A stretch of DNA of 64,000 bases from Polytrichum commune (lineage: Eukaryota > Streptophyta > Polytrichopsida > Polytrichales > Polytrichaceae): the NCBI GenBank assembly GCA_950295325.1, contig OX485806.1, forward strand, positions 1,736,001 to 1,800,000. Direction: 5' to 3'. Of this stretch, positions 29,477-63,603 are shown piece after piece. Both the position numbers and the translations under genes were made by a program. Every line of letters starts with the position of its first letter. Position 1 is the first letter of the stretch. The notes beneath the pieces are model-generated. The model saw only the letters and a program-made list of their open reading frames with translations. It was not told where the DNA came from and did not search any database.

Positions 29477-29560
29477 TGTAGAAGGAATGTAAATGCGAGC
29501 ATACAGAAGGGAGTGGCCAAATGGGCAATGGAATTAAGCTGAGCAGAAAGTGGGGCGGTG

Positions 29561-30739: not shown

Positions 30740-33700
30740 ATGAACACTCGGTCGAGAGCGAGAGCAGAACGAGAAGTGAGGAGGAGTATTGAGAAACAGA
30801 GGCGGATTGAGAGAAATGAGAGGTTCGCTACTAGAGATAACGTAGTGACCCCGTACAAATTGAGGTCAACCATGGGAAGAAAAGGAGATAATTCAAAAAA
30901 AACTACTCACAGTCGTTCAAAGCGATATGTTGAGTCATTTGAAAAGGCGGAGGTTGCTCCCATTAGGTTATTCTCTTTAGGAGAGGAAGACAACTCTGTG
31001 GAAAACGAAGAAATTCAGGTATGCTCTGGTTACATTACATTCATGTTGAATTTATTCAAAGTTTATGAGTCCCCGGCATAGTTGGCTTGAAAGGGAATCA
31101 TTATGTCTTTAGAGGCAGCTCCCCTATACAATCAACATCAATTGTTGAAGATACTTTGTCGCATCATTGCAAGTTTGGAACCAAACCTAAACCTGGTTCC
31201 GGGCAGAGGCAACAACAACCAGGAAGCGCAGCATCGAGTGAATCTACTTCGGAAAACACTAGGCAACAGATCATTCGGAACAGTGAGGACGTTGAGTGCG
31301 AAGAGGAAAGATTGGGTCGAGAGGAAGCCAACATGGAGACCGATGGCGAGTACTCTACAGAAGAGGTCAACCAGTTAAACCAATGAAAATTATTTCAATT
31401 TGTCTTGTTGTTTGGAATGTAAATAATGAAGGGTAGGGTTTCATTCCCCGAACCCTGATTGTTTTCCTAAATCTAAATCGTAGAAGGTGGGCTATAGGTT
31501 TAGATTTCAGGTTCTCCCATTATGTGGTTGTTGAATATATGGGGTTCGGGACCGAACCCTTCATTTGGAGGTCCCTAAGTGGCCTCATTTCAAGTTAGAA
31601 TCTTACACTTTGAAGCCTCGGCTCTACATTGAGATTTCGGGTGCTCACTTTATATATGTGTAGTTGGCCTCAATTCAGGTTAGAATCTAACACCTTGAAG
31701 GAAGGCTATAGGCTCATATTTCAGGTTCTCGCATTATGAGGCTATCCAATATATGGGGTTCGGGACCGAACCCTTCATTTGCAGGTGAATAAGTGGCCTC
31801 ATTTCAAGTTGGAAGCTAACGAATGAAGCCTCGGTTCTAGGTTGAGATTTCGGGTGCTCACTTTATATAAGTCCAGATGGCCTCATTTCAGGTTAGAATC
31901 TAACACTTTGAAGCCTCGGCTCTACATTGAGATTTCGGGTGCTCACTTTATATATGTCTAGTTGGCCTCATTTCAGGTTAGAATCTAACACTTTGAAGCC
32001 TCGGCTCTACTTTGAGAATTCGTGTGCTCACTTTATATATGTCTAGTTGGCCTCATTTCACGTTGGAATCTTACAATTAGAGGCCTCCTCTCTAGGTTCA
32101 GATTTTAGGTGATCAATCTATGTTGTCTTAGTTGGCCTCATTTCGGGTTAGAATCTAAGTTTTTGAAAGTGGCATATAGGCTTAGACATCAGGTTATCAC
32201 TTTATGTGGAAGTCCAATATATGGGTTTCGGGACCGAAACCTTCCTTTGGAGGTCCCTGGGTGGCCTCATTTCAACTTTGAAACGAACACTTTGAAGCCT
32301 CGGCTCCACTTTGAGATTTCGGGTGCTCACTTTATGTATGTCTTGTTGGCCTCATTTCATGTTAGAATCTTGATTTTGAAGGTGGGCTATAGGCTAAGAT
32401 TTCAGGTTCTCACTCTATGTTGATTTAGTTCGCCTCATTTAAGGTTAGAATCTAACTCTTTGAAAGTGGCCTATAGGCTTAGATCTCTGGTAGTCACTTT
32501 ATGTGGGTGTCCAATATATGGGTTTCGGGACCGAAACCTTCCTTTTGAGGTCCCTAAATGGCCTCATTTCAAGATAGAATCTTACATTTTGAAGCCTCGG
32601 CTCTACTTTGAGAATTCGGGTACTAAGTTTATATAAGTCTAGTTGGCCTCATTTCAGGTTAGAATCTAACACTTTGAAGCCTCGGCTCTACATTGAGATT
32701 TCGGGTGCTCACTTTAGATAAGTCTACATGGCCTCATTTCAGGTTAGAATCTGACACCTTGAAGGAGGGCTATAGGCTCAGATTTCAAGTTCTCATAATT
32801 ATGTGGCTGTCCAATATATGGGGTTCGGGACCGAACCCTTCATTTGGAGGTGCCTAAGTGGCCTCATTTCAGGTTAGAAGCTAACGAATGAAGCCTCGGT
32901 TCTAGGTTCAGATTTCGGGTGCTCACTTTAGATAAGTCTACATGGCCTCATTTCAGGTTAGAATCTCACACCTTGAAGGAGGGCTATAGGCTCAGATTTC
33001 AAGTTCTTATAATTATGTGGTTGTCCAATATATGGGGTTCGGGACCGAACCCTTCATTTGGAGGTGCCTAAGTGGCCTCATTTCAGGTTAGAAGCTAACG
33101 AATGAAGCCTCGGTTCTAGGTTCAGATTTCGGGTGCTCACTTTAGATAAGTCTACATGGCCTCATTTCAGGTTAGAATCTCACACCTTGAAGGAGGGCTA
33201 TAGGCTCAGATTTCAAGTTCTTATAATTATGTGGTTGTCCAATATATGGGGTTCGGGACCGAACCCTTCATTTGGAGGTGCCTAAGTGGCCTCATTTCAG
33301 GTTAGAAGCTAACGAATGAAGCCTCGGTTCTAGGTTCAGATTTCGGGTGCTCACTTTATATAAGTCTACATGGCCTCATTTCAGGTTAGAATCTCACACC
33401 TTAAAGCCTCGGCTCTTCTTTGAGAATTCGGGTGCTCACTTTATATATGTCTAGTTGGCCTCATTTCAGGTTAGAATCTCACACCTTGAAGGAGGGCTAT
33501 ATGCTCAGATTTCAAGTTCTCATAATTATGTGGCTGTCCAATATATGGGGTTCGGGACCGAACCCTTCATTTGGAGGTGCCTAAGTGGCTTCATTTCAGG
33601 TTAGAAGCTAACGAATGAAGCCTCGGTTCTAGGTTCAGATTTCGGGTGCTCACTTTATATAAGTCTACATGGCCTCATTTCAGGTTAGAATCTCACACCT

Positions 33701-36700
33701 TGAAGCCTTGGCTCTACTTTGAGAATTCGGGTGCTCACTTTATATATGTCTAGTTGGCCTCATTTCAGGTTAGAATCTGACACCTTGAAGGAGGGCTATA
33801 GGCTCAGATTTCAAGTTCTCACATTATCTGGTTGTCCAATATATGGGGTCCGGGACCGAACCCTTCATTTGGAGGTGCCTAAGTGCCCTCATTTCAGGTT
33901 AGAAGCTAACGAATGAAGCCTCGGTTCTAGGTTCTGATTTCGGGTGCTCACTTTATATAAGTCTACATGGCCTCATTTCAGGTTAGAATCTCACACCTTG
34001 AAGGAGGGCTATAGGCTCAGATTTCAAGTTCTCATAATTATGTGGCTGTCCAATATATGGGGTTCGGGACCGAACCCTTCATTTGGAGGTGCCTAAGTGG
34101 CCTCATTTCAGGTTAGAAGCTAACGAATGAAGCCTCGGTTCTAGGTTCAGATTTCGGGTGCTCACTTTATATAAGTCTACATGGCCTCATTTCAGGTTAG
34201 AATCTCACACCTTGAAGCCTCGGCTCTACTTTGAGAATTCGGGTGCTCACTTTATATATGTCTAGTTGGCCTCATTTCAGGTTAGAAGCTAACGAATGAA
34301 GCCTCGGTTCTAGGTTCAGATTTCGGGTGCTCATTTTATATAAGTCTACATGGCCTCATTTCAGGTTAGAATCTCACACCTCTAAGCCTCGGCTCTACTT
34401 TGAAAATTCGGGTGCTCACTTTATATATGTCTAGTTGGCCTCATTTCAGGTTAGAATCTCACACCTTGAAGGAGGGCTATAGGCTCAGATTTCAAGTTCT
34501 CACATTATGTGGTTGTCCAATATATGGGGTTCGGGACCGAACCCTTCATTTGGAGGTGCCTAAGTGGCCTCATTTCAGGTTAGAAGCTAACGAATGAAGC
34601 CTCGGTTCTAGGTTCAGATTTCGGGTGCTCACTTTATATAAGTCTACATGGCCTCATTTCAGGTTAGAATCTCACACCTTGAAGCCTTGGCCCTACTTTG
34701 AGAATTCGGGTGCTCACTTTATATATGTCTAGTTGGCCTCATTTCAAGTTAGAATGTAGTATTTGAAGCTGGGCTCTAGGCTTAGATTTCACGTTCTCAG
34801 ATTATGTGGCTGTCAAATATATATGGGGTTCGGGACCGAAACCTTCCTTGGGAGGTCCCTAGGTGGGCTCATTTCAAATTATAAACTAACACTTTCAAGC
34901 CTCGGCTATACTTTGAGATTTCAAATGCTCACTTTATATGTGTGTAGTTGGCCTCATTTCAGGTTAGAATGTAGTACTTGAAGATGGGCTATAGGCTAAG
35001 ATTTCAGGTTCTCACATTATATGGCTCTAATGGTTAGAAGTTAATTACAAAGCAACATTATCAATTTGGGTCAAATGATACCTACTTTGATCTACAATGT
35101 GTTGACTCTTTGGTAGGTGCATGCTATATCTTCGCCACCTTCGACACAAGTATCGGAGGGAAAGCTTCCAGATATGGATATACTAGAGGACGAGCATGAG
35201 ATAGAAGAAGAGTCTCTTAGAGATAATGCTCACTTTCTAGGTAGTGAGGATGAGATTCGGACCAGGCAAAAAGTTAACTCTGTGGCCACGATTACAAGCT
35301 TGATATTTCAACCAAACAGTTCTTCGCGATTTAATATTCCGTTGTGCAGATTGATGGCAATGCCAATGGTACGGCCAACTCTGGCATCCGATCTTGCTAA
35401 GCTCGAGCAAGAATTTGTGCATGGATACAGGGAATGCGCTTCGGTCTTTTATGTTACAATCACCAATAAAGACGGAAATACCCATGAAGTGACGGAAGCT
35501 GATAAAGCTTCTTGGGGTCCTATTTGGGACGCCAAAAACGCCATTTTCAAGTCATTTCTCCTCTCGGATCCAGCGTTGGCTCCATTCACAAATTTGATGT
35601 TTTTTGTGTGCGACGGTAACCATAGGCGTCAAGCTTGGTTAAATCACATTGACAGACTTCACCGAACTGATGAGGATTGGCATTATTTGGTGGATTCAAT
35701 TCTCCTGGACACAAAGGGGAAAAATGGACTTGTTATACAAATCATGCACAACATAAACAAGTATGTTCATTCTCTTTTGATATATAATCTTTCATTGAAA
35801 ATTCAATATGATTTCACTTTCTTTCTTACTACGATAATCTAATATCTTCCATTTGATTTTTGTATTTAGACATACAGAGGACTCTCATGTGAAGACCAAC
35901 ATTGTCCATACCCTCTTCAGGGTTCAGAAGTATGGTCTTATGTCAATTGAACAATTCAATGACATTTTGAGTCCAACCGACCTCAAAAAGTACAAGAAGT
36001 CTCAGAAGACTTGGTATTCGTTACCATTACATGTATTTACAAATTTCATATTTCAGGTGCGTCACGGAATAGTCCTAATGATTTTATAAAATATGTAAAC
36101 TTTGATGGTGGGCTATAGGTTAAGATTTCAGGTTCTCACATTTTGTGGATGTCCAATATATGGGGTTCGGGACCGAACCCCAATTAGAAGGTTCCTAAGT
36201 AGCCTCATTTTAGGTTAGAATCTAACACTTTGAAGCCTCGGCTCTAGTTTGATTTTTCACATGCTCACTTTATGTTGGTTTAGTTACCTTCATTTCATGT
36301 TAGAATGTAAATCTTTGAAAGTGGCCTATAGGCTTAGATTTCAGGGTCTCATTTTATGTGGGTGTCCAATATATGGATTTCGGGACCGAAACCTTCCTTT
36401 GGAGGTCTAGAAGGTCACATTTTGAAGCCTCAGCTTCAAGTTTCACATTACAGGTGCTCACTTTATATTTATCTAGTTGGCCTCATTTCACGTTAGAATC
36501 TAACAATAAGAGGCCTCGGCTCTAAGTTCAGATTTAAGGTAAACACTTTATGTTGTTTTAGTTGGCCTCATTTCAGGTTAGACTCTACCTCTAAGTGGCC
36601 TCATTTGAACTTAGAAATTGGCACTTTGAAGCCTCCGCTCTAGTTTGAGATTTCAGGTGCTCACTTTATGTAAGTCTAGTTGCCACATTTCAAGTTAGAA

Positions 36701-39700
36701 TCTAAAATTTTGAAGCCTAGGCTCTAGTATGAGAATTCGGGTGCTCACTTTATGTTGGTTTGGATGGCCTCATTTCAGGTTAGAATCTAACACTTTGAAG
36801 CCTCGGCTCTTGTTTGAGATTTCAGGTGCTCACTTTATATAAGCCTAGTTGGCCTCATTTCAGGTTAGAATCTAACACTTTGAAGCCTAGGCTCTAGTAT
36901 GAGAATTCGGGTGCTCACTTTATGTTGGTTTGGATGGCCTCATTTCAGGTTAGAATCTAACACTTTGAAGCCTCGGCTCTAGTTTGATTTTTCACATGCT
37001 CACTTTATGTTGGTTTAGTTACCTTCATTTCATGTTAGAATGTAAATCTTTGAAAGTGGCCTATAGGCTTAGATTTCAGGGTCTCATTTTATGTGGGTGT
37101 CCAATATATGGGTTTCGGGACCGAAACCTTCCTTTGGAGGTCTAGAAGGTCACATTTTGAAGCCACGGCTTCAAGTTTCACATTACAGGTGCTCACTTTA
37201 TATTTATCTAGTTGGCCTCATTTCAGATTAGAATCTAACAATAAGAGGCCTCGGCTCTAAGTTCAGATTTAAGGTAAACACTTTATATTGTTTTAGTTGG
37301 CCTCATTTCAGGTTAGACTCTACCTCTAAGTGGCCTCATTTGAACTTAGAAACTGGCACTTTGAAGCCTCCGCTCTAGTTTGAGATTTCAGGTGCTCACT
37401 TTATGTAAGTCTAGTTGCCACATTTCAAGTTAGAATCTAACATTTTGAAGCCTAGGCTCTAGTATGAGAATTCGGATGCTCACTTTATGTTGGTTTGGAT
37501 GGCCTCATTTCAGGTTAGAATCTAACACTTTGAAGCCTCGCCTCTTGTTTGAGATTTCAGGTGCTCACTTTATATAAGTCTACTTGGCCTCATTTCAGGT
37601 GCTCACTTTATATAAGTCTACTTGGCCTCATTTCAGGTTAGAATCTAACACTTTGAAGCCTAGGCTCTAATATGAGAATTCGGGTGCTCACTTTAAGTTG
37701 TTTTAGTTGGCCTCATTTCAGGTTATAATCTAAGTCTTTGAAAGTGGCCTATAAGCTTAGATATCAGGTTCTCACATTATGTGGCTGTCCAATATATGGG
37801 TTTCGAGACCAAAACCTTCCTTTTGAGGTCTAGAGGGTCACACCCTGAAGCCCCGACTTCAAGGTTCAATTAAAGGTGCTCACTTTATATATATCTAGTT
37901 GGCCTCATTTCAAGTTATAATCTAACACTTTGAAGCCTCGGCTCTAATTTGATATTTCGGGTGCTCACTTTATATATGTGTGTTTGGCCTCTTTTCAGGT
38001 TAGAATCTAACACTTTGAACCTTCGGCTCTAGTTTGATTTTTCACATGCTCACTTTATGTTGGTTTAATTAGCTTCATTTCAGGTTAGAATGTAAATCTT
38101 TGAAAGTGGCCTATAGGCTTAGATTTCAGGGTCTCATTTTATGTGGGTGTCCAATATATGGGTTTCGGGACCGAAACCTTCCTTTGGAGATCTAGAAGGT
38201 CACATTTTGAAGCCTCGGCTTCAAGTTTCACATTACAGGTGCTCACTTTATATTTATCTAGTTGGCCTCATTTCAGGTTAGAATCTAACAATAAGAGGCC
38301 TCGGCTCTAGGTTCAGATTTAAGGTATACACTTTATGTTGTTTTAGTTGGCCTCATTTCAGGTTAGACTCTAACTCTAAGTGGCCTCATTTGAACTTAGA
38401 AACTGACACTTTGAAGCCTCCGCTCTAGTTTGAGATTTCAGGTGCTCACTTTATATAAGTCTAGTTGCCACATTTCAAGTTAGAATCTAACATTTTGAAG
38501 CCTAGGCTCTAGTATGAGAATTCGGGTGCTCACTTTATTTTGGTTTGGATGGCCTCATTTCAGGTTAGAATCTAACACTTTGAAGCCTCGGCTCTAGTTT
38601 GATTTTTCACATGCTCACTTTATGTTGGTTTAGTTAGCTTCATTTCAGGTTAGAATATAAGTCTTTGAAAGTGGCCTATAAGCTTAGATATGAGGTTCTC
38701 ACATTATGTGGGTGTCCAATATATGGGTTTCGGGACCGAAACCTTCATTTTGAGGTCAAGAGGGTCACATTTTGAAGCCTCGGCTTCAAGGTTCGAATTA
38801 CAGGTGCTCACTTTATATATATGTAGTTGGCCTCATTTCAGGTTAGAATCTAACACTTTGAAGCCTCGGCTTCAAGGTTCGAATTACAGGTGCTCACTTT
38901 ATATATATGTAGTTGGCCTCATTTCAGGTTAGAATCTAACACTTTGAAGCCTCGGCTTCAAGGTTCGAATTACAGGTGCTCACTTTATATATATGTAGTT
39001 GGCCTCATTTCAGGTTAGAATCTAACACTTTGAAGCCTCGGCTCTAGTTTGAGATTTCGGGTGCTCACTTTATATAAGTCTAGTTGGCCACATTTCAGGT
39101 TAAAATCAAAGACATTGAAGCCCTGGATATAGGTTCAGATTTCAGGTCTCACTTAATGTTTTGGATTTGATGGCCTCATTTCAGGTTAGATTCTAACAAT
39201 GTGAAGCCTCGGCTCTAGGTTCAGATTTCGGGTGCTCTCATTTGTCTAGCTCTAGTTCAGTTCTTTTGTCCAAAACATCTTGTCCAACTTATTAATTTCA
39301 TTTTCATTTCAAAATTTGGTTTCCTCGTTCTTGTTCTCTCTTTGTGCAGCATGAGCTGGGTCTCGCTGCCGACGAGGGTGCACGTCAGCTTGTGGAGCAA
39401 TCAAAAGGAGAAGTCTCCCCTGCTGACAAGGCGGCTGCGATGAAAGCCGCAGTTGAGAAGAGATCTCTGGCACTTCGCATGAAAATGGGAAAATTGGTTG
39501 CTGTGGCGAACCCGGAGCTTACCGACGGTTGGCTACGTGAGGTACGCACCCTGATCCTTTGTCCATATCAATCTTTTAAGCTTCTCCGTTTGACTGAGGA
39601 ATTCACAAGAGCTCTGTCTTTCAGATTGAGCGACATTACACGTTAAACTCACTTTCCCCGGACCTCAACTTAGAGAAGTTGCAGCTCATTGCAACTTCAA

Positions 39701-41028
39701 GGGCGTCTCCGGCAATGAAAATAAAATGGCTAGAGTACTTTAATTCATCTGCTTCCACTCGTGAGGCCCGAAAGCTACCTCCCAAGCCTATCAACGAAGA
39801 TAAATTGGCAAATTTCTTGGCAAAGGCTTGTTTCTGGGCAGGAGTAAGTCCACTGCTTCTATTCAATTTTCAGTTCATTGAATTCATCTTTGGCATGTAA
39901 TTTACACAACTATCATTCTTTATTTCATCGACTTGATTTAGAAATTGGTCCAGCTGATGCTTATTTTCTTGCTTAACAGATCTCAGAACAGGCCAGTCTC
40001 ATTTTTGACGAGACCATGCGTCAAGACCGAGTTCCTATCAACATGAGTATTGCCAGTGAGCCCATGTTATTGCCAGTGTATATCGAAGACTGTCGCATGA
40101 AGTTATGGGACCATGCCTTCAGCACCTACTTCAGAGGACAAGATTCCTTCAAAAAAGGTGACGAGTTTGTTGGATTTAACGAAGCTGACCTAGTTGTCCG
40201 CCGAGTTCTTTTTCGGTGCGTCTCTAATCTATAAGGACTTTTCATTAATTTCAGTAATTGGTTCAGTCCATATTCTTTGTTTTGCTAGTTCGGAAGTTGT
40301 TGATGTTAATGTTATGTGCTATTTCGTAACACAGGTACTTTAAGTACGAGCTTTTGGCCAAAGGAACTATTTCCAAAGATGACCTTCCTGTATTCTTGAA
40401 CACATGGCTTGATAGATCAAACTCAGCGTGCATGTTCTCGGCTCTTCAAGAACGCACGTGGACAAGTTCTCACCTTACCAGCGGTGCCTGGTCTCTTGAT
40501 TGCGCTTTAAGTTTCACTCCTTCTTTTGAGACTGAGCTCAGGAAATCAAGGGAGGCTGTAGGTGAGTCTGGAATTGAAATGGTTGACTTACAGGCCATAG
40601 AAGATGAAAATAAGAGGGCAAAGGCAATGAAACGACGCATTGAAGAGGACCGAAAGAAAGCGCTGAGGGTCAAGGAAGCTGAGGAGAGAGCTGACCAAAA
40701 AGAGCGGGAGAAGGTGCAGAATTCGTTGGATAAGTCCACTAGAAAGGGGAAAAATAAGATGAACCCCCCTCCGGAGCCACAAGGTAAGAGTCCGGTTGCT
40801 CCAAGTCCCACATATGAATCTGGTTCTCATGCTCCAACATTTTCTAGAGGCACAAAACGCGACTCGTCCTACGAGCAGTTGAGTCAAATACCTATTATGA
40901 CATCTGGGGAGGAGCTCGACATCCATATTGAAGAGCTCATTCTCAACTCCTCATTGGACGACGTTCTTGGCGGTGACACGGATGAATTCACCCCTTCCTA
41001 CAACGACTTGAAAACATTCATGCTCAAG
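30740..41028 (+). CDS. Gene A: unknown multi-exon protein with ParB/DGxHR-like domain, 3' end missing
   Basis: Seven exons join in consistent phase: 30740-31018, 35117-35760, 35870-36056, 39350-39541, 39625-39843, 39980-40215 and 40335-41028, about 817 codons with no stop. Exon 1 is basic and helical (RSRARAEREVRRSIEKQRRI). Exon 2 starts acidic, then has a region like the N-terminal domain of ParB and its relatives: FNIPLCRL, an Arg, a DLAKLEQEF helix, FYVTI, then FFVCDGNHRRQAW (about residues 259-264). The DGNHRR box is where ParB and DGQHR proteins have their nucleotide or DNA-contacting motif. Exons 3-6 are mainly helical. Exon 7 has a long charged coiled coil (RAKAMKRRIEEDRKKA) and a Ser/Pro-rich acidic tail. 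A good donor at 41029 means at least one further exon, which is not visible before the LTR at 43787. Introns 1, 3 and 7 are filled with tandem repeats. Host gene or transposon gene cannot be decided. Confidence 0.65.
31087..31386 (+). CDS. Possible alternative terminal exon or small ORF after gene A exon 1
   Basis: The frame ending at 31386 encodes about 90 polar, acidic residues rich in Ser, Glu and Gln, similar in character to the start of gene A exon 2. A candidate acceptor (TTTAG) lies near 31107, but its phase does not match exon 1 as called. It may be an alternative last exon, an untranslated exon, or a relic. Confidence 0.25.
   Translation: MKGNHYVFRGSSPIQSTSIVEDTLSHHCKFGTKPKPGSGQRQQQPGSAASSESTSENTRQQIIRNSEDVECEEERLGREEANMETDGEYSTEEVNQLNQ
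31480..35030 (+). repeat. ~85-bp tandem repeat array filling gene A intron 1
   Basis: The main unit contains TGGCCTCATTTCAGGTTAGA, CTTTGAAGCCTCGGCTCTA and GGGTGCTCACTTTATATA. It alternates with a second unit carrying CCAATATATGG followed by the dyad GGGTTCGG-GA-CCGAACCC or its T/A variant. Larger blocks of about 210 to 300 bp are repeated almost identically at 32880-33300. Units further left and right are more diverged. Dyads lie near 31542, 31756, 32224, 32521, 32821, 33035, 33249, 33548, 33845, 34060, 34527 and 34826. Confidence 0.92.
36090..39240 (+). repeat. ~85-bp tandem repeat array filling gene A intron 3
   Basis: The same repeat family and orientation as in intron 1, with a block of about 700-900 bp duplicated (compare 36240-36900 with 36985-37560 and 38030-38590). 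Dyads of the GGTTTCGG-GA-CCGAAACC type lie near 36163, 36376, 37111, 38161 and 38726, and a decayed one near 37799. Confidence 0.92.
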
Positions 41029-41094
41029 GTACTGCTCTTCCTTTAAATTTATGCATTTCAATCTTGTCAATCCAATGGTGTGATCAGTAGAGTT

Positions 41095-43530
41095 AGAAAA
41101 TTTGAGTATTTGCTCAACCTAGAACCGAGACTTCAAAATGTTTGATTCTAACCTGAAATGATGCCGACTAGACTTATATAAAGTGAGCACCCGATATATG
41201 AATTTAGAGCAGAGGCTTCAAATTGTTAGATTACAACCAGAAATGAGGCAAACTAGATATATAAAGCGAGCACCTGTAATTTGAACCTTGAAGCCGAGGC
41301 TTCAAAGTGTTAGATTCTAACCTGAAATGAGGCCAACTAGATTTATATAAAGTGAGCACCCGAAACCTCAACATAGAACCGAGGCTTCAAATTGTTAGAT
41401 TATAACCTGAAATGAGGCCAACTACATATATATAAAGTGAGCTCCTGTAATTTGAAGCTTGAAGCCGAGGCTTCAAAATGTGACCCTCTTGACCTCAAAA
41501 TGAAGGTTTCGGTCCTGAAACCCATATATTGGACAGCCACATAATGTGAGAACCTCGTATCTAAGCCTATAGGCCACTTTCAAAGACTTAGATTCTAACC
41601 TGAAATGAGGCCAACTAAATCAACATAAAGTGAGCACCTTTAATCTGAACCTAGAGCCGAGGCCTCTAATTGTTAGATTCTAACCTGAAATGTGGCCAAC
41701 TAGACATATATAAAATGAGCACTTGAAATCTGAACCTAGAGCTGAGGCTTCAAATTGGTTGATTCTGACTTGAGATGTGGCCAACTAGACTTATATAAAG
41801 TGAGCACATTAAATCTGAACCTAGAGCCGAGGTCTCTAATTGTTTGATTCTCACCTTAAATGTGGCCAACTAGACATATATAAAATGAGCACTTGAAATC
41901 TGAACCTAGAGCCGAGGCTTCAAATTGGTTGATTCTGACCTGAAATGTGGCCAACTAGACTTATATAAAGTGAGCACATTAAATCTGAACCTAGAGCCGA
42001 GGCCTCTAATTGTTTGATTCTAACCTGAAATGTGGCCAACTAGACATATATAAAATGAGCACTTGAAATCTGAACCTAGAGCCGAGGCTTCAAATTGGTT
42101 GATTCTAACCTGAAATGTGGCCAACTAGACTTATATAAAGTGAGCACCCGATATATGAGCTTAGAGCTGAGGCTTCCAATTGTTAGATTATAACCTGAAA
42201 TGAGGCTAACTACATATATATAAAGTGAGCTTCTGTAATTTGAAGCTTGAAGCCGAGGCTTCAAAATGTGACCCTCTTGACCTCAAAATGAAGGTTTCGG
42301 TCCCGAAACCCATATATTGGACAGCCACATAATGTGAGAACCTCATATCTAAGCCTATAGGCCACTTTCAAAGACTTAGATTCTAACCTGAAATGAGGCC
42401 AACTAAAACAACATAGAGTGAGAACCTGAAATCTTAGCCTATAGCCAACCTTCAAATTCTAGATTCTAACCTGAAATAAGGCCAACTAAAACAACGTAAA
42501 GTGAGCACCCTAAATCTGAACCTAGAGCCGAGGCCTCTAATTGTTAGATTCTAACCTGAAATGAGGCCAACTCTACATGTATAAAGCGAGAACCTGAAAT
42601 CTCAAAGTAGAGCCGAGGCTTCAAAGTGTTATATTCTAACCTGAAATGAGGCCAACTAGAACAACATAAAGTGAGAGCACTTGAAATCTGAACATAGAGC
42701 CTCGGCTTCAAAGCTTTAGATTATAACCTGAAATGAGGCCAACTAGATATATATAAAGTAAGCACCTGTAATTTGAACCTTGAAGCCGAGGCTTCAAGGT
42801 GTGACCCTCTAGACCTCAAAAGGAAGGTTTCGGTCCCGAAACCCATATATTGGACACCCACATAAAGTGAGAACCTGATATCTAAGCCTATAGGCCACTT
42901 TCAAAGACTTAGATTCTAACCTGAAATGAGGCCAACTAAAACAACATAAAGTGAGCACCTTTAATCTGAACCTAGAGCCGAGGCCTCTAATTGTTAGATT
43001 CTAACCTGAAATGAGGTCAACTAGATATATATAAAGTGAGCACCTTTAATTTGAACCTTGAAGCCGAGGCTTCAGGGTGTGACCCTCTTGACCTGAAAAT
43101 GAAGGATTCGGTCCCGAAACCCATATATTGGACAGCCACATAATGTGAGAACTTGAAATCTAAACCGAAAGCCACTTTCAAAGAGTTAGATTCTAACCTG
43201 AAATGAGGCCAGCTAAAATAACATAAAGTGAGCACCCGAAATATGAATTTAGAGTCGAGGCTTCATATTGTTAGATTCTAACCTGAAATGAGGCCATGTA
43301 GACATATATAAAGTGAGCACTTGAAATATGAATTTAGAGCCGAGGCTTCATATTGTTAGATTCTAACCTGAAATGAGGCCACGTAGACATATATAAAGTG
43401 AGCACTTCAAATATGAATTAAGAGCCGAGGCTTCATATTGTTAGATTCTGACCTGAAATGAGGCCACGTAGACATATATAAAGTGAGCACTTGAAATCTG
43501 AACTTAGAGCCGAGGCTTCAAAGTGTTGAT
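41095..43530 (-). repeat. ~85-bp tandem repeat array downstream of gene A exon 7, inverted orientation
   Basis: The same family, but reverse-complemented relative to introns 1 and 3: units read TCTAACCTGAAATGAGGCC and AGAGCCGAGGCTTCAAA, with dyads as GGTTTCGG-TC-CCGAAACC near 42293 and 42826 and decayed copies near 41505 and 43105. Confidence 0.92.
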
Positions 43531-43786
43531 ATGAATTTGAGCTTGACTGTGGGTTGAGGGAATCTGGTTTGGGGGTTAGGAGTTGATATTTGACTGATTA
43601 TGATTTGAGTCTAAGGGTGGGTGAGGGAAGAGGGGATTCTGGTAGGGGGTAGATGTATAAAGTTTTGATTTTTCTAAGACTCTAAAATTGAAATGTAGGA
43701 CTCGTAAGAGGTCTCTCGGCCCCAACACACTCTGTTTAGGGTCTAATATGTTAGTGATTTTGATATGAATTTGAGCTTGACTGTGG
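43531..43786 (+). repeat. 25-bp direct repeats flanking ~205 bp
   Basis: The motif GATATGAATTTGAGCTTGAC plus CTGTGG occurs at about 43531 and again just before the LTR at 43762-43786. The sequence between them is unrelated to the arrays. It could be the footprint of an earlier insertion or of the rearrangement that placed the LTR here. Confidence 0.55.
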
Positions 43787-45751
43787 TGTGAGCCCAAAAG
43801 GGTGCCCACATTTAGTCTTAGACCCTTGAAACGTTAGTTGATGCACTTTGAAGTAGCATGTTACTTCACAAAAATATAAAAAGAGTGAAATGTTAGTCTT
43901 AGAAGTACCATGTTGTAAGAGGCTAGGATGTGAGTTGTTATTGTGTTTTTACCTTCGGAAGGATTTGAGTGAATGAGGATAGGTAAGGAGAACTTGGATT
44001 GAGTAGTTAGTAAGTAGGCTAGTACAAATGGATGGAGACAACCAAAGTGACTCAAGAGGCAAGTGCATTCGAATTGGGATGAATGGAGGATCACATGGAG
44101 CGCACAAGTGGACCACCTCATCATGGCCACTTAATGGGGAAGGCCCAAGGAAGAATGCAAGGTGGAGGATAAGCAAATTCTCAAAGCACCAATCAAATCA
44201 CGAGTTAAGCATCGTGGTTTGAATTAAGTGGTGAGCGACGATTTGGGAAAGTAAGGGGAGAAAGTTATGGCGGCGGAAAGCGAAGGAGGCTAAGTTTGGG
44301 TTGAAGCATCCCAAGTTTGGTAAAGTGTGGTAGGTAGAAAGCCAAGGCTAGTTAAATGTTCGAATTAGGATCCTTGTTGATCATTTGAGGGAGGAAGGCT
44401 TAGAAGATAGGATTGGCGCCTACTAAGTAGGAGGAAATCTCAAGGGCTTATCGTGAGCCTTGAGGGTGCTCACCCCCTCAAGCTTACTATATAATCCCTC
44501 ATTCTTCCCTCACTCATCCTCTCTTTCCTTTGTGCTCCAAGGCACCCCACGAGTTATAAGTGTGGGTGTGGGAAGCCATATTGGAGCACATGTGTGTGCT
44601 TAGTTTTTAGTTTGAGAGCCAAGGCTTGTTAGCCTTGAAGAGGGCTTGACCTCTTGGTAGAATTAGTGTTGACGTGAAGGATTTTAAAGTTAATTCATGA
44701 TTCCAATTTGTGGTACTTAAAGTTCATGTTTTGAATACACGTGGTTGCAAGTTCCATGTTTAAGAGTTGAGCACTTGATGTTGTGATGAGTGCAAAAATA
44801 TACTTGTGTGGATTAGTTAGTCTTAGTGAAGTTAGGAAATTCTCTCTCCCCCTCTCCTCTCTAGGATTTTAGGATTTTAGGATTAGAGAAGAATTGTGTG
44901 ATTAGAAAGGGGTTGTTAGTAGAATTAGGGAAATTAGGTAGGAAGATTAGTTAAGGGCTTGAATAATTAGTGAGGTAGTTGGGGATTACAACTACAAAGT
45001 TGTGGGTTCATGAAGGAGCTGGGTTTATGAAGGAGCTGGGTTTGTTTAGTTAGAAAGTAAAGAGCTGGGTTTATGAAGGACCTGGGTTTGTTTAGTTAGA
45101 AGCTAAGGAGCTGGGTTCATGAAGGAGCTGGGTTTATGAAGGAGCTGGGTTTGTTTAGTTAGAAAGTAAAGAGCTGGGTTTATGAAGGACCTGGGTTTGT
45201 TTAGTTAGAAGCTAAGGAGCTGGGTTCATGAAGGAGCTGGGTTTATGAAGGAGCTGGGTTTGTTTAGTTAGAAGCTAAGAAGCTGGGTTTATGAAGGAGC
45301 TTAGTAGATAGCCTACCTAATTAGCTCATAGACAAGTAGTTAGTTACATTATGCTAGTTAGTGTTATGTGTGGCTTTCACAAGTAAATGTATTTGAGATT
45401 GACTATAGAGAATAGTGTTTTTTTTAACACTTGCATCCTCTCTCTAAAAATAAACCACGTGCACAACTTAATGGAGAATGTGGAGCACTCTCGCGATGGC
45501 AAGACAAAGGAAGCAAAGACCAAAGGTGCGAGGGAGAGATTGACATAAGTCACATAAGTATTTCTTAATACTTAAAGGCTTATGTACGGTATGGAGACAC
45601 CAATGAAATTCTAGTTAAATCCAAGACCACTTGAAGGGTGAACCTTGCACTATGGACTCATCCAAGTCCAAATCCAATACCGCGGAGGAATGTGAGCCCA
45701 AACCCACTACTCGGACTACGGACGCTTAAGGGTGGGGGGTTTGGCCTCACA
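43787..45751 (-). mobile_element. LTR of the same family as 19609-21133, inverted, without matching target duplication
   Basis: It starts TGTGAGCCCAAAAGGGTGCC and ends GACGCTTAAGGGTGG...TTTGGCCTCACA, the reverse complement of the ends of the solo LTR at 19609-21133. The interior is related but carries a different minisatellite. Flanking pentamers differ (TGTGG on the left, GCCTC on the right), so it is not a simple insertion. Confidence 0.75.
45008..45300 (+). repeat. Minisatellite in the inverted LTR
   Basis: Repeats of AAGGAGCTGGGTTTATG and GGGTTTGTTTAGTTAGAAG units form a higher-order unit of about 110 bp. It sits in a position comparable to that of the 42-bp minisatellite in the other LTR copy but differs in sequence. 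Confidence 0.8.
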
Positions 45752-48700
45752 GCCTCCCAGAGTCGGTGTTAGACGATAACGGCAACGACAACTATGTCCC
45801 CAAGGAAGACTTCATGGGGGAGTGGACGGCACTGCCAGAGAAGATCGGGGACGGCCTCTTCTGCATGCGCTTCACCTACGAGCTGGAGACAAGACCGGAC
45901 CAGCCCGAACAGTGGGTTCAAATGAAGACGTGGGAGATAGAGTCCATAGAGGCCCAGGGGGAGTATGTAATTCTGGACATGAAGAACAAGAAGGATCATA
46001 TCAACCTCTTGTTACATTTTCAGAAAAATACCTTCTCCTACCAATACGCCACCAATAACGTAGCGGAAGATGCCAAGCACTTCGACCTGGACGGCCTCTT
46101 CTCCAAATATGCGTTGAGCCCATACTGGACTGCAAGGAAATTGAACGCCCTGGCATTGAACATCTCCAAATACAACAGTGTGGTCACTGAGGCAAACAAG
46201 AAGAAGAAGAGCCCCAGGAAACCATCCACATCAGGGGCAGGAGGATCTAGAAGTGCACCCAGGCCTGTGCCTTCCGCTAGCAGGGCGACGGAGGGCCCCA
46301 GTAGACACTCCACGCCATCGAAGAGGACAAGGGAGGAGATGGAGAAATCGGGAGTAACGGAGACCGCAGAGGTGACCTCGCCTGTCGTAATGCCCACCCC
46401 CTTGAAAAAGGGTGAGAACCCTGACGCTGTGAAGGCCACGAGGATCCTTCGAGACTTCAACAACTACTCGAAGGATTGCTGGCCCATGGGACGCCACTTC
46501 ACATTCAACGTGGACTGCTTCAAGTGCGAGATGTCCCCCAACAAATGGGTGGTTCGCTCTCGCGAAAGCGGTGGTGTGAAGTGGCAGATAAATAATCTAA
46601 TGAACAACGTCAAGTGGGACAGGCAGACCGTCTGCGTCATGCCGAAGGGGCTGACATCCCGTCCGACGGAGAAGGACTGGCCACGGATCCAGAATGGAGA
46701 GTTCTGGATCATAGACGGCCAACACAGCTTGGAGGCGTCCCAAATAATTCTCAAGGACGACAACTTCCAGCATGAGCTGAAGGAGGACTTGCGCTACTGG
46801 AAGGCGTTCTTGGTGTGGTCGGACGATTGGGACAAGCTGCGGAAGATATCCACCTTCCTCAACTCCGGCAACAAAATCAAGGCCTTCGAGGCGTCGTGGG
46901 CAGCCAACATAGTGGCTGCAAGGGACGTCTGGGTCGCCCACGGGTGCCCCCCTAAAGAAAGGGAGAACGCGAAGACGCCGTCTCCACAATGGAAGGTGAG
47001 TTTACGAACGAACGTTCGTAAATATCTTTGACATTCAAATTTTCAAGTTCTTTGACATTCAAACTTACGAACGTGCGTTCGTATTTTGTGCGTTACTGAT
47101 GTTTTTCTTGCTGCAGGCATTCTGCGACGCGATGGTGGACAAGTTCTCCTCCATCGACATGAAGTCTACAACAACCAAGTCTGTCCTGGAGCTCAAGGGT
47201 GAGCTCCGCCTCATCTGTTGCAACAGGGACACTTGGGAGTTGTGGACACAATTTTTTGATGCGCACAGCTCGGGCGATCTGGTCAACCCCGACACCGAGG
47301 AGAAGTACAGCGCGGAGAAGACCGGGGAGGCCCCTCCACTACTGAGGGAGTTCTTCAGGTCCCTTCAAGGGTTAACAGAGTCCGAGTTGCAGAGGTGCGC
47401 GGTGCATCTTCTTGGGAACACTGTGGGAAGAACCATCCCATACCCGAAGATATTTTTGAAGAGGCCAAGACACAAGCCCGGCACGTATTCCATCAAGGAA
47501 TGGTGCGAACACCGCAAGCTGAAGACTGCTGCAATGAGGGAGTTGAGCGCCCTAATACCAGAGTACGCACTCATCCTAGCCGACGGGGACATTAATTGGG
47601 CCAGCTGGAAGATGTTCAAGGTCGACTACAACATCTCCGGACCCTCAATGCGTTGTCTTGTCAAGGAGCACGCCTCCATTTTGAAGCAGAAGGGGAACAA
47701 GAGGACAAAGAAAACCGAGACGGATCCCCAAGAGGTGGAGCAATACAGAAGCTTTTTGACGCGGAAGAGGTTGGCCACATTCGAAGGAGTGGCCAGATTT
47801 TGTCTGTTGACAAAAGGAGTGGAGAGGGTGACATTTTCCAAGTGGGACCGGACCATGAGCAGGGCCGAGGTGAGGGAGGATCGACGGGGGTGCCCATTTG
47901 CCCTGATCGATTTCAGGGGGATCCCCGGTGCGTCGAGGCAGGGGGGGAAGGACATACCTTTCTACGACCCCTTCATGGCCAAGTTCAAGGAGCACAAGTC
48001 TCCGGACATGAGGGAGCCTCACGTTTGGCTGTGGATAGTCGAGCAGGAGAAGCTCTCTGCTGTAGTCGACCTGTACGAGAAGTCGATCAAATTTGAGTAC
48101 AGCATCTTCCACAGCACTTACGTGCCCGCCAAGACGGAAGGGATCGTGGCCATCAACGAGGCCAGGGGGAACAAACAGGTGGGGGCGGTCAGCCTCGTCT
48201 TCTTGACGTACAACGCGCTGCGGAATGGGCGAGCCCCTGTCAAGGCGAACACTACGTTCAAGAAGATCTACAGCATCCCCCATCCCCCTCCCAAGGATCT
48301 GCTGCAGGAGACCTTGTACACTGTCTTCCCGGCGATGGAACTCAGGTTGGAGTTCTACGTCTCCGTTTTGCAGAGCGTGGCAATAAGCGGAGAGACCGTG
48401 TACAACGTTTGTGGCGGCAGCAAGTTCATGTACGCTGCGATGGTAAGCTCTCCAACTAATATTTACGAACGCTCGTTCGTAAAGTTCACCTCAACTTGTC
48501 TTGGGTTTGATGACATTGTTTCTCGTCGTTGATGTTTACGAACGCACGTTCGTATTTTCTAACGTATTTGCTTGAATCTCAGATGCTGGGGCTGGTCGTC
48601 AACAGCTTCATTGAAGCCATCGACGAGGAGGACTTCCACGTGCACAGGGCGAAGGCCTCCACGATGGACCTGGAGGACATGTCCCTCCCGAGGACGGACA

Positions 48701-51403
48701 TCAACATGCCCGTCGACGAAGGCATGCCCGCCATGGAGACGGACGACGACGAGCCCGCGCCCTCCTACAACGTCGAGGCGATCCTCCGATCCTTGGACGT
48801 CACTCCTCTCCGCATTTTGGCGCCGTCGGGAAATCCATCCGACGTGCAAGGGACTCCGGGTGGATACACGGGGTCGTCGGCGGGGACAACCCAAGATGTC
48901 CTCCCCGCGAGAACGTCTGGAGCGGAGGCATTCGGCACTCCCGGGGGATGCTCGACATCCGTGTCGCCCAGGCCGATCGTGGTTCCCAAGATGGAGAACC
49001 TCGACCTTCTGGACCAACGGTCCCGACCGACGTTGGACCAGTACCGCAACACGAGGCGGAGGATGAAGAAGACCCCCTACGTGGAGCTGCCTCCGGGGGC
49101 AATCATCGAGGTCTCCGATGAGGACGAGGGCGACATGGAGATCATGGTCGAGCTGGGGGTAGACTTCGACAAGAACAAGCGGGTCAAGGAGGAGGCGTTG
49201 TCCGTCGCCGAGCTTAACGCCAAGCTCGAGCAAAAGATGAAGGAGGACATGGCGAAGGCGGCAGAGGAGAATGCCAAGAAAATGTTCGCAATTCAGGAGG
49301 AGCTGAGGCAGTCCAACGAGAAGATGGACGCCATCCTCGCCATGCTCCAGCGTATGCAGAGCTTCTCGGCGCCCCCCCCAGCCGGCCTACCCCTTCACTG
49401 GAGGATACCCCTCCCAATCCCCTCCACCGGGCATGTTCACCGGAGGGCCTTCCCGCCAGCAGGCGCCCCACCCCACGCCTGTTGGCACTCCTCCGCCACC
49501 AGAGGTTCCCTCGACCACCTCCCACGATGCTGTGGCGGCGGCCATCCAGGAGGACGAGGATTTACGAACGCGCGTTCGTGAATCTTCAGGTCCTCCAGTC
49601 CTCACCCCTCCCCCTTCAAGGGTAGGACTGCCCTCATACACCGATGCATCGTCTTTCACCGTCGTCCCCAGGGTAGTAGACAGACATGGCGATGACTCTG
49701 CGCGACACACTGACATGGTCATTGTGGAGGACACGCAGGGGAGCCCCAATGACGCACCAGGGGTGCATGGGATGGACGTGGAAGAAACCCATGCGGCGTG
49801 GATGGAGGATGTCAGGATGGACGCGCTCGACCTGGGCGCCGAGGAAGAAGACGCGCTGCGCATCCAGGCGACACAGGCCTCTCAACCGGAGCGTGAGGCA
49901 GAGGCCATGGAGACAGAGGCGGCTGCAGCTGTGGAGGTTACGAACGCGCGTTCGTTAATCGTTGAGGAGGGACCTGCTGCTCGGTCCAGCGCCGCTACCC
50001 CTCCCCCCGATGACGAGGTAACTCTCCTCTGAGAATACCATTTTTTAACGAACGCGCGTTCGTAACCTCTCTAACATCGCGATGTTTTTATCTTCATCGA
50101 CATCCAGTGGCCTTGCGAGAGCCCTCTTCAGCGGTCCCCCTTAGGGCCGAACAGTTTTGTAGGACACGGCATCATTTTGCCTTAGGAAAATGTGATAGAC
50201 TATCACGTGAGAAATGTAAATATTCAACGGATTAATATATGAGCCTATGTTATCTGCATCGCGTTGCTTCAAATTCTCTGCCCTCGACCCCTTCTCGTAT
50301 GTTGTATATGTTGATGAGATTATGTTGATTCTTGCATACCCACCTCATTCGCGAACGCTCGTTCGTGAAAGGTTGCGACCCACTGTCCACCTCATTCGCG
50401 AACGACCGCTCGTAAATGTACGTGTAGCCGCGCTCACGAACGAGCGCTCGTAAATGATGCGCACCGCCCCCGCAGCCTTCATTCACGAACGCTCGTTCGC
50501 AAGTGTGCCCTTGAGCACATTTTCCTTGCACTCTCCTCACTTCCTCGTCTTTCCCCATAATGCACCGTCTTCATTTTCTACGCAAAATTTCATTATTGGA
50601 TCATAGAATTAAACTAGTCGCGTTGTTCATCACAGGACCCCCCGGAGATTGGTCGCAACCCCTCTACCAGTGGACCTCCCAACCGGAACAAACCTTTCAT
50701 CGTTTTTGACCTCAACGGGGTGTTGTGTCACACCCAACACATCCCAAGGGTCCCCACGCGTCCCTTCCGTCACCCCGACGAAAGGGACTACGACGGCGAG
50801 CTCGACACCCTCATTAACCGCAAGGCTGTCCGCGCCCGTCCCGGCTTGCGTGACTTCCTTCGCGAGGTGGTCGAGTTCGCTCACGTCATTGTGTGGAGCT
50901 CCATGGTCATGGAGAACACCGAGCCCGTCGTGCACTTCTTGTTCCGCGATCTCCCGAGCCCTTGCCTCGTCCTCGGCCAAGAGGACTGCGACGAGCTGCT
51001 CGACGAGAAAGGTCAACCGGTGCCCAAGTTTGGCGGTCGGGGCGGAGGACAACAGTTCCTCAAGGTCCTCCGCTCGAGACTCTGGCGAGGCGTCCCCCGT
51101 CTGCAAGGGACGCCGCACGGGTGGTGGCCGACTCCAGAGAACACCGTCCTCATCGACGACAGCCCCACCAAGAGCGTCTTGAACCCCCCGGGCAACGTCA
51201 TCTTCCCGGACACTTGGACCGGCGATAGGCAAGACACATTTTTGGTCGATAGGCTAGCCCCCTACCTTAGAAGGCTCGTGCTCCACGCCGGTAGCATCCC
51301 ATTTTTTGTTAGGTCCAACCCCTTCGGCAATGCGGCGCTAAGCCCCCGCGATAATGTATTCAAGAGCATCATGAGGCTAGCCAAACTCAATAAATTGATT
51401 TGA
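45752..51403 (+). CDS. Gene B: ParB/DGQHR-like domain protein, probably fused to a FCP1/NIF-type HAD phosphatase domain
   Basis: Exons are 45752-46995 (5' end cut at the LTR border), 47117-48442, 48583-50017 and 50636-51403, all joined in phase 0, about 1585 codons. Exon 1 has a Lys/Pro-rich linker, then a ParB-like stretch ending FWIIDGQHSLEAS (near codon 317), followed by helices. Exon 2 is helical. Exon 3 is acidic with a coiled coil (LNAKLEQKMKEDMAKAAEE) and a Pro-rich tail. Exon 4 is a HAD domain: FIVFDLNGVLCHT (the second Asp of DxDx is Asn, as in many plant-specific NIF-like proteins), VIVWSS, and LIDDSPTKS. Inside exon 3 the frame shifts by one at a run of eight C (49372-49379); downstream the Pro-rich frame continues to the next donor. 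This is a real mutation or a sequencing error. The HAD part could instead be a separate gene. GC content and codon use are far higher than in gene A. Function unknown. Confidence 0.65.
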
Positions 51404-51780
51404 AATGCCTCCATGTCTTTGCTTGTATCATGTGGTTCACATTTACTAATGCTTGCTTCGTTTTTGGATGTCTTTTGTTGTTGTGATTGTTGTTGTTGTT
51501 GTTCTTGCCCATAGTCTGCCCCCATATGCGACGCCCCTGTGGTCGACGGCCCTTCCCGTCTCCTCTCGCCCCCTGCCTCCCCTTCCCGCGACGTCACGGG
51601 CTTCCAAATGCCATCCCTCTACCAGTTCTCGGCGGTCGACGCGGCCTCGGCCGTGGATTACTCCCGCGACGTCGGCATCGACGACGGCGTCGTCAACAGC
51701 CCGCCCCCACCACTTGTCGCCCGCGCCTACGCCCCGTCGCCCTCCCCCCTCTCCAAGGAGAAACGGACGCTCGTTCGTTT
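47001..51780. repeat. Twelve dispersed ~16-22-bp dyads, ACGAACG-nn-CGTTCGT, in and around gene B
   Basis: Copies start near 47001, 47065, 48462, 48535, 49561, 49938, 50046, 50348, 50395, 50433, 50482 and 51761. The arms are ACGAACG and CGTTCGT, often extended by TTT/AAA, around a variable 2-nt centre (AA, TG, CT, CA, CG, AC, AG). Nine are in introns, two within exon 3, and one in the GC-rich region after gene B. I saw none elsewhere in the window. Confidence 0.93.
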
Positions 51781-52515
51781 GGGACACCTCTCGCCCTCGA
51801 GGGACGACGCCGTCGCTCGTCGCGGGCCGAGCCGGCGTCTCCGCATGGAAGGCCCCCGTTGCCACACCTCCCCCGCCGACTCCGTTCCTCCCCCCGCAAC
51901 GTCCTCCGCGATCGTGGGCCCTCCACGCCTCGACTCCCCCCCGCCATCCAACATAATTGCAATAGTTCCATCGGCTCCGGATGCTCCCGTCGACGCCCCC
52001 CTCGTTCCCACCGTTCCCCGCATGGACGTCCCCAAAGCCAAGGTGCCCTCCTCAACCCTGAACCCCTTTCTCGCTTTTGCTTTCCTTGTCTTCCGTTTGC
52101 GTGCCGTTCTCTTTACGAGCGCCCATCCCAAACCGCCCTCATTATTTTCCCCACTCCATTCCTATTCTTATCTTCCTATGACGTTGTTTCGCAGGTGGTT
52201 ACCCGCTCGCTTGGTGCCCGGCCCTCCTCCACGTCCTCCTTGGATAGGCACGCCCTCAAGGCCGCATCTTCCGAGTCCGATCGTTGTCTGGCCCTCCGGA
52301 GAAGCGCAAGACGTTCCCTTTCGCAAACACCCTCGCATTCTACTTATAATACCACCTCTTACAATTCGGGAGCGCGTCCTGAAACATGCAAGAACGACAC
52401 ATATTCCTGTCCAGGCAACACACAAGGATACAGTCGTGGGCCTGAGATTTTTAGAGCCATGGAGGCCGCCAAAAAAAAGGGCTTAGCCGCAAAAAAAAAT
52501 AATGGGTCGGACTAG
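51515..52515 (+). CDS. Possible Pro/Ser-rich coding region downstream of gene B
   Basis: A GC-rich stretch has long overlapping open frames. The frame ending at 52486 contains FQMPSLYQFSAVDAASAVDY followed by Pro/Ser-rich, low-complexity sequence and looks the most protein-like up to about 52040. A splice acceptor (CCCATAG) precedes it at 51514 and another (TTTCGCAG) lies at 52195. It may be a further exon of gene B or a separate gene. No family was recognised. A one-mismatch copy of the gene B dyad is at 51761. Confidence 0.3.
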
Positions 52516-53338
52516 TGTGACGTCTAGAAGCGTACTAGTGGGACGGACTCCCTAAATGGGCTTAGGTGTAGAACATATTTAAGTGCTTACTTTCTATGCT
52601 ATTCCAAGTTACTCAAGACATTGATGGTATTTCCATTATAATTGTATTTCAATCCCAATTAATTCATTCAACTTCCATTCATTCTTCGCACCTTCCCTTC
52701 CATTCATAACGAGTTGTGATTTCATACGCAACTATTTTCATGTATGCCTCACATTTTTGTTCACTTCCATGCCTTTATGTATAATAATAGTAGCATACCA
52801 TTATACATATGGAATTTTTAGTCGTCATTACTGGTCCAATTTTGAAAGGTGCATCCTTATATAGTCTCATAATCAACAAAAAGTCTCCAAATACCGAATA
52901 TAGTGTTCTCTCAAAAATTCATATGAAGTCCAAAAAATGAGTTCTTGGTATCCATGGATAGGTAATGAAGTCTTCTACATTAATATGCAATAATATTTCT
53001 ACTGCACATTCCCGTGTCCCCCCATCCGCACCCCATCTAACTTACGCCCTTCGCAAATAATATATGTGACACTAAATATCATTACCGGTGTACTTATCCA
53101 CACAAAACTAATGAAGGATACCTCAAGCAACAAAGTAACCAATGTAGTATGATGACCAACAAATTATCACCCCTATGGAGATTTTTTATCTATACAACAA
53201 TTTGTGGTAAGGACAAATACACTAAAATACACATATTTGTTACTCTATATATAATATTAAAATTTCAAAATTTGTAAGACAACGATGTACAAGTGATAAC
53301 TTTATTATTGCGACGACGGTATAAATGCCCTTTATAAA
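52516..53338. other. AT-rich intergenic stretch
   Basis: I see no open frame of note, no repeat and no element end here. Confidence 0.5.
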
Positions 53339-54232: not shown

Positions 54233-54763
54233 AAATCACATAGTTGTGCTTCAACCTTAGTGGTTCGTATGGTTTCACAACCCACACGCATTCGAATGCC
54301 ATTTTAATTCAACAAAGTACATATTTGTGCTTCAACCTTTGTGGTCCATATGGTTTCACAACATATATCAGGCATCCGAATACCATTTTCATTCAACAAA
54401 TCACATATTTGTGCTTCAACCTTAGTGGTTCGTATGATTTCACAACCCACACGCATTCGAATGTCATTTTAATTCAACAAAGTACATATTTGTGCTTCAA
54501 CTTTTGTGGTCCATATGGTTTCACAACACATATCAGGTATCCGAATGCCATTTTCATTCAACAAATCATATATTTGTGCTTCAACCTTAGTGGTTCGTAT
54601 GGTTTCACAACCCACACGCATTCGAATGCCATTTTAATTCAACAAAATACATATTTGTGCTTCAACCTTTGTGGTCTATATGGTTTCACAACACATATCA
54701 GGCATCCGAATGTCATTTTCATTCAACAAATCACATATTTGTGCTTCAACCTTTGTGGTTCAT
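54233..54763 (+). repeat. Alternating 81/84-bp tandem repeat
   Basis: Two related monomers alternate, both starting CATATTTGTGCTTCAACCTT: one continues with GTTTCACAACCCACACGCAT, the other with GTTTCACAACA and TATCAGGCATCCGAAT. The pair is about 165 bp and is repeated about three times. Both lengths are multiples of three, so one frame stays open over the array (54244-54765), with a repeated CFNLxGxYGFTTH peptide. I treat this as satellite rather than gene. Confidence 0.85.
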
Positions 54764-54791
54764 AAACCCTAAACCCTAAACCCTAAACCCT
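54764..54791 (+). repeat. Four plant telomere repeats (AAACCCT)
   Basis: Four exact copies of AAACCCT directly abut the end of the alternating repeat, then unique sequence resumes with ACGTCATTCC. This is the Arabidopsis-type telomere unit. With only four copies it is an interstitial tract, not a chromosome end. Confidence 0.95.
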
Positions 54792-57147: not shown

Positions 57148-57150
57148 TTT

Positions 57151-57992: not shown

Positions 57993-58029
57993 CCATACTC
58001 TTGTGAAATGATTTCATAAAATAGTCAGC

Positions 58030-63577: not shown

Positions 63578-63603
63578 GTGTTCATTCGATGAACCCTAAT
63601 CCT

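Follow-up and report, generated by a model that had tools for sequence, protein, structure and literature searches.

Introduction

Among the described systems that most resemble the one reported here is VANC of the Mutator-like VANDAL elements of Arabidopsis, a transposon-encoded protein which, in the account given by one report, binds motifs in noncoding parts and introns that sit in fast-changing tandem repeats and which carries the domains DUF1985 and DUF287 (PMC5735166). Related VANC families are described as having separate target spectra, and both binding and hypomethylation have been shown, with YAGTATTAY as the motif of VANC21 (PMC5735166; PMC10398659). For maize, TnpA of the CACTA element Spm is described as activating its own element with DNA demethylation, and TnpA and MURA are given as further such cases (PMC10398659). 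In Ectocarpus, the transposon Sola1-1_Ec32 is reported to encode an accessory protein that joins a ParB-like region to an N4/N6 DNA methyltransferase and is proposed to bind and modify its own transposon, and relatives of it are cited from both green and red algae; the passages of the report that concern this protein describe no binding sites (PMC12477816). Here, we describe two neighboring genes, A and B, and the short dyads (two arms around a two-base center) that accompany each of them, in a 64,000-nucleotide stretch of the Polytrichum commune genome (contig OX485806.1, here C4:1736001-1800000), which we call the window.

Genes A and B are parts of high-copy mobile elements that form two separate dispersed families and lie side by side in the window. 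The explanation that we favor, and in which our confidence as a whole is moderate, is that they are accessory genes of these families and that the target of each protein, which would probably bind as a symmetric dimer, would be a short dyad whose two central bases are free. Each element bears many of its own dyads through introns, exons and flank, and the protein would thereby locate every copy of its family and act on the chromatin there, sequence-specific anti-silencing or epigenetic marking being the likeliest action. Divergence of the protein would change the dyad too, so that sister families would cease to recognize each other. We infer binding, dimerization and anti-silencing by the two proteins; self-recognition through dyad binding is likely, and anti-silencing or marking is its probable outcome by analogy with the systems above. 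All dyads described here contain symmetric CpG pairs, and binding could therefore sense methylation.

As with VANC, the genes reside in mobile elements whose noncoding parts, introns and tandem repeats hold arrays of motifs specific to the element, and the motifs change by clade. Unlike VANC, genes A and B have no Pfam match to DUF1985 or DUF287, their sites are dyads (which YAGTATTAY is not) that are in some cases exonic, and a single genome lets the change of the dyad be traced across three clades of gene B. The binding and hypomethylation by VANC have been demonstrated, whereas the evidence on genes A and B is from sequence. TnpA is a looser parallel than VANC: the Spm TnpA sites are subterminal, whereas the gene A and gene B sites run through the element. 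Gene B shares with Sola1-1_Ec32 its location in a transposon, but by eye the DPPY motif is replaced by DFR in gene B and an FCP1-type phosphatase domain follows, in contrast to the ParB-like region plus methyltransferase of the Ectocarpus protein. ParB-methyltransferase genes in algal transposons are already known; among the papers listed by our literature searches were those on the Ectocarpus protein but none that reported cognate dyads or their change with the protein.

Results and Discussion

The searched genome comprises 407.8 Mb, of which 406 Mb lie in seven contigs of 42-78 Mb, suggesting seven chromosomes; both elements are integrated in each of these seven. Gene A exon 3 has at least 75 copies (75 scored among 2,932 candidates) and gene B exon 2 has at least 65 (65 scored among 1,953 candidates); these counts are lower bounds because scoring took in the best candidates alone. 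The top 20 rows for gene A exon 3 are 88-99% identical, and 12 of them have no stop in the stretch; the top 30 rows for gene B exon 2 show 98-99% identity, with a stop in one. Eighteen further places, one of them reported as two pieces, match window positions 45752-52907 at 99-100%; 17 of the 18 start at 45752 and 14 end at 52907. These copies and their common start indicate recent movement of the gene B family and a cut or join at 45752 in the window copy. The 18th place, C4:1881627-1890522 on the minus strand, lies about 100 kb from the window locus, matches window 44000-52907 almost base for base in inverted orientation and appears to have arisen by duplication of that locus. The common 3' end of the gene B element reads ...ATATAGTGTT (...TAGTGTT) and could be a CACTA-type end.

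The gene models were drawn by eye from open frames and splice signals (Table 1). The DGxH boxes pointed out in the initial annotation of this DNA are present in both genes, as FFVCDGNHRRQAW near 35600-35640 in gene A and FWIIDGQHSLEAS near 46697-46736 in gene B. Its many-copy dyad of gene A was recovered as well, GG[G/T]TTCGG-nn-CCGAA[A/C]CC having 21 matches in the window at no more than two substitutions: 17 at 31542-38726, 4 at 41505-43104 in the inverted array and none in the rest of the window. For gene B, 12 dyads had been placed in introns; the number held (12 at no more than two mismatches, 7 of them exact, with 0.03 expected from shuffles), and the placement was right for 9 (4 in introns 1 and 2 and 5 in intron 3), with 2 being exonic and 1 downstream of the gene. 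The downstream dyad is mixed, one arm resembling that of clade B3 and the other that of clade B1 (see below). Exon 3 of the window copy has one base more than most forward-oriented copies, and the exon 3 dyad lies at copy position 3951 in L045, L066 and L068, at 3932 in L049 and at 3950 in most others. The degraded array unit that lies next to the present gene A array is, by eye, a hint of array replacement. Long 86-bp tandem arrays at 18164-25207, with 17 and 48 copies, belong to another family.

The association of dyads with the genes extends through the genome. Exact matches to the gene B dyad ACGAACGnnCGTTCGT number 5,602, those to the reversed control 4; about the first hundred of the dyad matches were listed, and two of the listed clusters were read. 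The cluster C1:2235508-2244533, chosen by its dyads alone, encodes a gene B copy with 85-86% amino acid identity in exons 1 and 2 and has dyads at the corresponding intron and exon positions. All 30 gene B loci that were cut out, the window copy among them, have five to seven exact dyads. The subfamily locus L069, with 76% identity in exon 2, has 17, seven of which form a 5' cluster, and L070 likewise has a seven-dyad cluster upstream. There is no cross-occurrence: 32 B1 loci hold 203 B1 dyads with neither a B2 dyad nor a gene A core, and 33 gene A loci hold 231 cores with neither a B1 nor a B2 dyad. Together with the many genome copies, this bears out the earlier view that the genes are element borne and that each has a dyad family of its own, and the loci examined, with the exception of L001, give no picture of dyads scattered through the genome without a link to the genes. 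A chance origin of the dyads was rejected on the shuffle, reversed-control and expected-count comparisons.

Alignment of the window with L070 and with L069 showed how far the gene B dyads differ from their surroundings. In the seven exact window dyads, which provide 98 arm bases, 97/98 are identical in L070 and 97/98 in L069, compared to 173/275 (62.9%) and 158/273 (57.9%), respectively, of the bases elsewhere in introns 1 and 2 and in the first ~100 bases of intron 3. The exons lie in between, with identities of 1069/1326 (80.6%) and 1014/1326 (76.5%) for exon 2 and of 1088/1398 (77.8%) and 1013/1371 (73.9%) for exon 3, again for L070 and L069. The two-base center is less constrained than the arms (12/14 in L070 and 10/14 in L069). 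By this comparison, the gene B dyads appear to be held by selection.

A profile search for gene B relatives found 48, and more distant clades, present in this genome too, carry other dyads at a matching intron position. Clade B2 (P0041-P0053 among the metagenome members, about 30-35% to P0002) has at least 92 copies in the genome, which show GTTTGGGTCG-nn-CGACCCAAAC in intron 1; L074 has it in intron 2 too. The exact dyad TGGGTCGnnCGACCCA occurs four times each in L074, L077 and L078 and once in L079, where the stretch stops inside the intron, and none of these four loci contains a B1 dyad or TCGGnnCCGA. Clade B3, to which P0021 belongs, has at least 97 copies and the dyad ACGGACGnnCGTCCGT; the two copies read show TTTACGGACG-CG-CGTCCGTAAA in intron 1. 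L080 has one exact dyad, L081 has two and a third that carries a mismatch, and neither locus contains B1, B2 or gene A sites. For the clade of P0021, ACGGACG or ACGGCCG had been forecast from the read-through tails of metagenome open reading frames before the loci were read. Unspliced frames of this kind translate the dyad, and B1 peptides gave 23 matches in 12 of 54 proteins where 0.27 were expected. The change from ACGAACG in B1 to ACGGACG in B3 is symmetric, one base per arm, and in B1, B2 and B3 alike the first intronic dyad comes soon after the 5' splice site. On a gene B tree of 22 tips and six classes, from which the classless tips and one ambiguous tip were left out, the dyad class changes 5 times, compared to a mean of 13.1 and a minimum of 10 in 2,000 shuffles; with three classes, there are 2 changes, and the shuffles give at least 6. 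Dyads thus differ by protein clade.

Gene A gives a similar picture. TCGGnnCCGA is present in all 33 gene A loci (window included, L037 and L038 being near-identical), at 4-13 per locus where at most 0.03 are expected, and the outer arms vary by clade (GGGT/GGTT, AGTT and GGCC, TGTC). With dyad classes merged by hand, the gene A tree of 33 tips has 4 class changes, and shuffles have a mean of 11.3 and a minimum of 8. No blastn match at E 0.01 links the window array with those of L034 and L037 or these two with each other, yet each unit contains the core, which has therefore outlived the replacement of its surroundings. For gene A, the argument depends on such comparisons between subfamilies because likeness within an array proves nothing.

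The ParB-like domains suggested in the initial annotation gave no significant profile match. Profile searches gave no family match for gene A and only weak matches at the DGQH box of gene B, to PF20188 (E 0.012-0.03) and to phrog_1033, a "ParB-like partition protein" (E 0.056-0.096). In profile-profile comparisons, the boxes of A and B align with a probability of 1.2, and gene B aligns with phage P1 ParB with a probability of 0.5. Profile searches of the PDB returned weak matches, none of them to ParB or a methyltransferase, with no PDB match for A2; PADLOC and NCBIfam searches gave nothing informative on the proteins, and tblastn against phage gave a single match at E 5. GxxR, which is described as the P motif of the ParB-CTPase fold (PMC12704722), is kept in gene A as GNHR in 4/4 aligned proteins. 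The membership of these domains in ParB is, on such sequence comparisons, unproven. Exon 2 of gene B shows by eye the motif order of a beta-class methyltransferase, IV to I, with GETVYNVxGG at the place of motif I and a DFR of which D and F are invariant in 12/12 rows and R is nearly so; a methyltransferase assignment had no Pfam, NCBIfam, PHROG or PDB support.

Several observations weigh against self-recognition through dyads. No significant profile match establishes a DNA-binding domain in gene A or B, and gene B does not have GxxR, reading GQHS in 25/25. The alignments with L070 and L069 may be pulled to the dyads, yet the gap is large and exonic sites are included; L069 has three dyads in intron 2 and the window two. 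In gene A, the outer arms are often asymmetric, mixed GGGT/GGTT dyads are common and many dyads are one base off symmetry; there is one mismatch in L036-L038, and L073 keeps the TCGG..CCGA core alone. Repeat amplification alone would hold gene A dyads alike inside one tandem array, and in the window the gene A dyad and the bases flanking it show about equal conservation. The tails of 51 gene B relatives were sorted by class rules set after the metagenome tails had been viewed, and 29 were classed (one ambiguous, ACGRACG), 14 had no class and 8 were too short. Finally, L001 (C1:639147-642162, the cluster starting from C1:640647) did not match gene B anywhere in its 3,016 bases. This locus contains 12 exact B1 dyads, densely placed, beside decayed dyads, in some of which CpG positions show C-to-T-like changes.

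Of the other explanations, one takes the dyads as transposition sites, subterminal repeats at which a transposase or helper aligns the ends, as at the Spm TnpA sites. The upstream seven-dyad 5' clusters of L069 and L070 and the possible CACTA-type 3' end would suit this role, but dyads occur throughout introns and exons, the terminal 1.1 kb on the 3' side is free of them in the window and in L076, and no transposase frame was recognized in L070 (9.3 kb), whose short frames were not run against profiles; we consider it unlikely. It is also improbable that some other factor, coded by the host or the element, binds the dyads and that the DGxH genes are passengers, although gene B has a phosphatase domain and an N-terminal region as well. 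Within one genome, three clades of gene B and several of gene A have clade-specific dyads, which disfavors a shared host factor; another linked gene of the element would still fit.

A role in RNA, with hairpins that aid splicing or mark transcripts, is suggested by the position of the first intronic dyad in B1, B2 and B3. However, dyads are found in exons and the 5' flank too, both strands are used in the gene A arrays, and a hairpin loop needs more than a two-base center, so we regard this role as very unlikely. Partition was proposed in the initial annotation, and many palindromic sites clustered beside a gene with a DGxH box, together with the GxxR of gene A, do recall bacterial ParB/parS. 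The host is eukaryotic, however, gene B is without GxxR, no significant sequence match to ParB, that of P1 included, was obtained, and no ParA was seen in a Pfam scan of nine frames, no search aimed at ParA having been made. With the elements integrated in all seven large contigs and the ParB assignment unproven, ParB/parS-type partition of an extrachromosomal form was rejected as most improbable, and anti-silencing or marking fits better. That the dyads are functionless, neutral repeats from tandem duplication, as the location of the gene A dyads within tandem arrays might suggest, is scarcely credible given that the dyad core outlasts gene A array replacement and that a simple tandem-repeat artefact is ruled out for gene B by the irregular spacing, the two exonic sites and the conservation of 97/98 arm bases in diverged introns.

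A further and rather doubtful reading would have gene A, with its GxxR, encode a nucleotide-switched clamp that loads at the dyads, spreads along the element and bars the silencing machinery. This would be a eukaryotic, transposon-borne counterpart of ParB-parS, with mutually blind protein-dyad pairs co-diversifying within one genome, and it would provide a natural series of orthogonal DNA-recognition codes. If binding is confirmed, one genome would hold several protein-dyad pairs, some of them one symmetric base change apart (gene B arms ACGAACG, ACGGACG and TGGGTCG; for gene A, a TCGG core whose outer arms vary), and how such a protein changes jointly with the numerous sites dispersed for it to bind would become directly testable. 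Self-recognition like that of VANC would then have arisen with an unrelated protein, and sites would be supplied for the ParB-methyltransferase accessory genes of algal transposons.

Other features of the window

Table 1. Positions of genes A and B, their dyads and associated arrays in the window
Feature	Position	Strand	Remarks
Gene A	~30741-41028	+	Spliced; from open frames and splice signals; no 3' end found
Gene A exons	30741-31019; ~31069-31370 (uncertain); 35117-35760 (DGNHR box); 35870-36056; 39350-39541; 39625-39843; 39980-40215; 40335-41028	+	By eye
Gene A intron tandem arrays	31435-39240	+	~84-86-bp units; 17 dyads GG[G/T]TTCGG-GA-CCGAA[A/C]CC
Inverted gene A-type array, downstream of gene A	41113-43527	-	4 dyads
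Degraded array unit	43530-43800	+	Decayed dyad; by eye like the array of gene A subfamily L036
Gene B	~45730-51403	+	Spliced; by-eye model
Gene B element copy	45752-52907	+	Differs from other copies 5' of 45752; common end 52907
Gene B exon 1	45730-46995	+	DGQHS box; open frames
Gene B intron 1 dyads	47004 and 47067 (47004-47082)		
Gene B exon 2	47117-48442	+	By eye resembles a degenerate beta-class DNA methyltransferase, DFR in the DPPY place
Gene B intron 2 dyads	48465 and 48538 (48465-48553)		
Gene B exon 3	48583-50017	+	Two exonic dyads; frame change between 49307 and 49581
Gene B exon 3 dyads	49564 and 49940 (49564-49955)		
Gene B intron 3 dyads	50048, 50351, 50398, 50436 and 50485 (50048-50500)		
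Gene B exon 4	50636-51403	+	NLI-interacting-factor-like (FCP1-type) phosphatase domain; PF03031, E 1.8e-16
Dyad downstream of gene B	51763-51778		ACGGACG-CT-CGTTCGT

At 11597-14339 on the plus strand, the window encodes a transposase of the CACTA type (Transposase_21, E 2.7e-62) with DUF4218 after it, and a Plant Ptta/En/Spm transposase domain (PF03004, E 8.6e-8) lies at 2443-3606 on the minus strand. Two long frames at 25808-29533 on the minus strand have no Pfam match and by eye are transposase-like, with a zinc-binding C-terminal part. At 56444-63945 on the plus strand there is what by eye is a Ty3/gypsy-like retrotransposon, with a 1,586-amino-acid frame and an RNase H-like frame, and a frame repeated at 56444 and 63553 suggests its long terminal repeats. 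A short TAAACCC repeat of the plant telomere type is found at 54763-54792.

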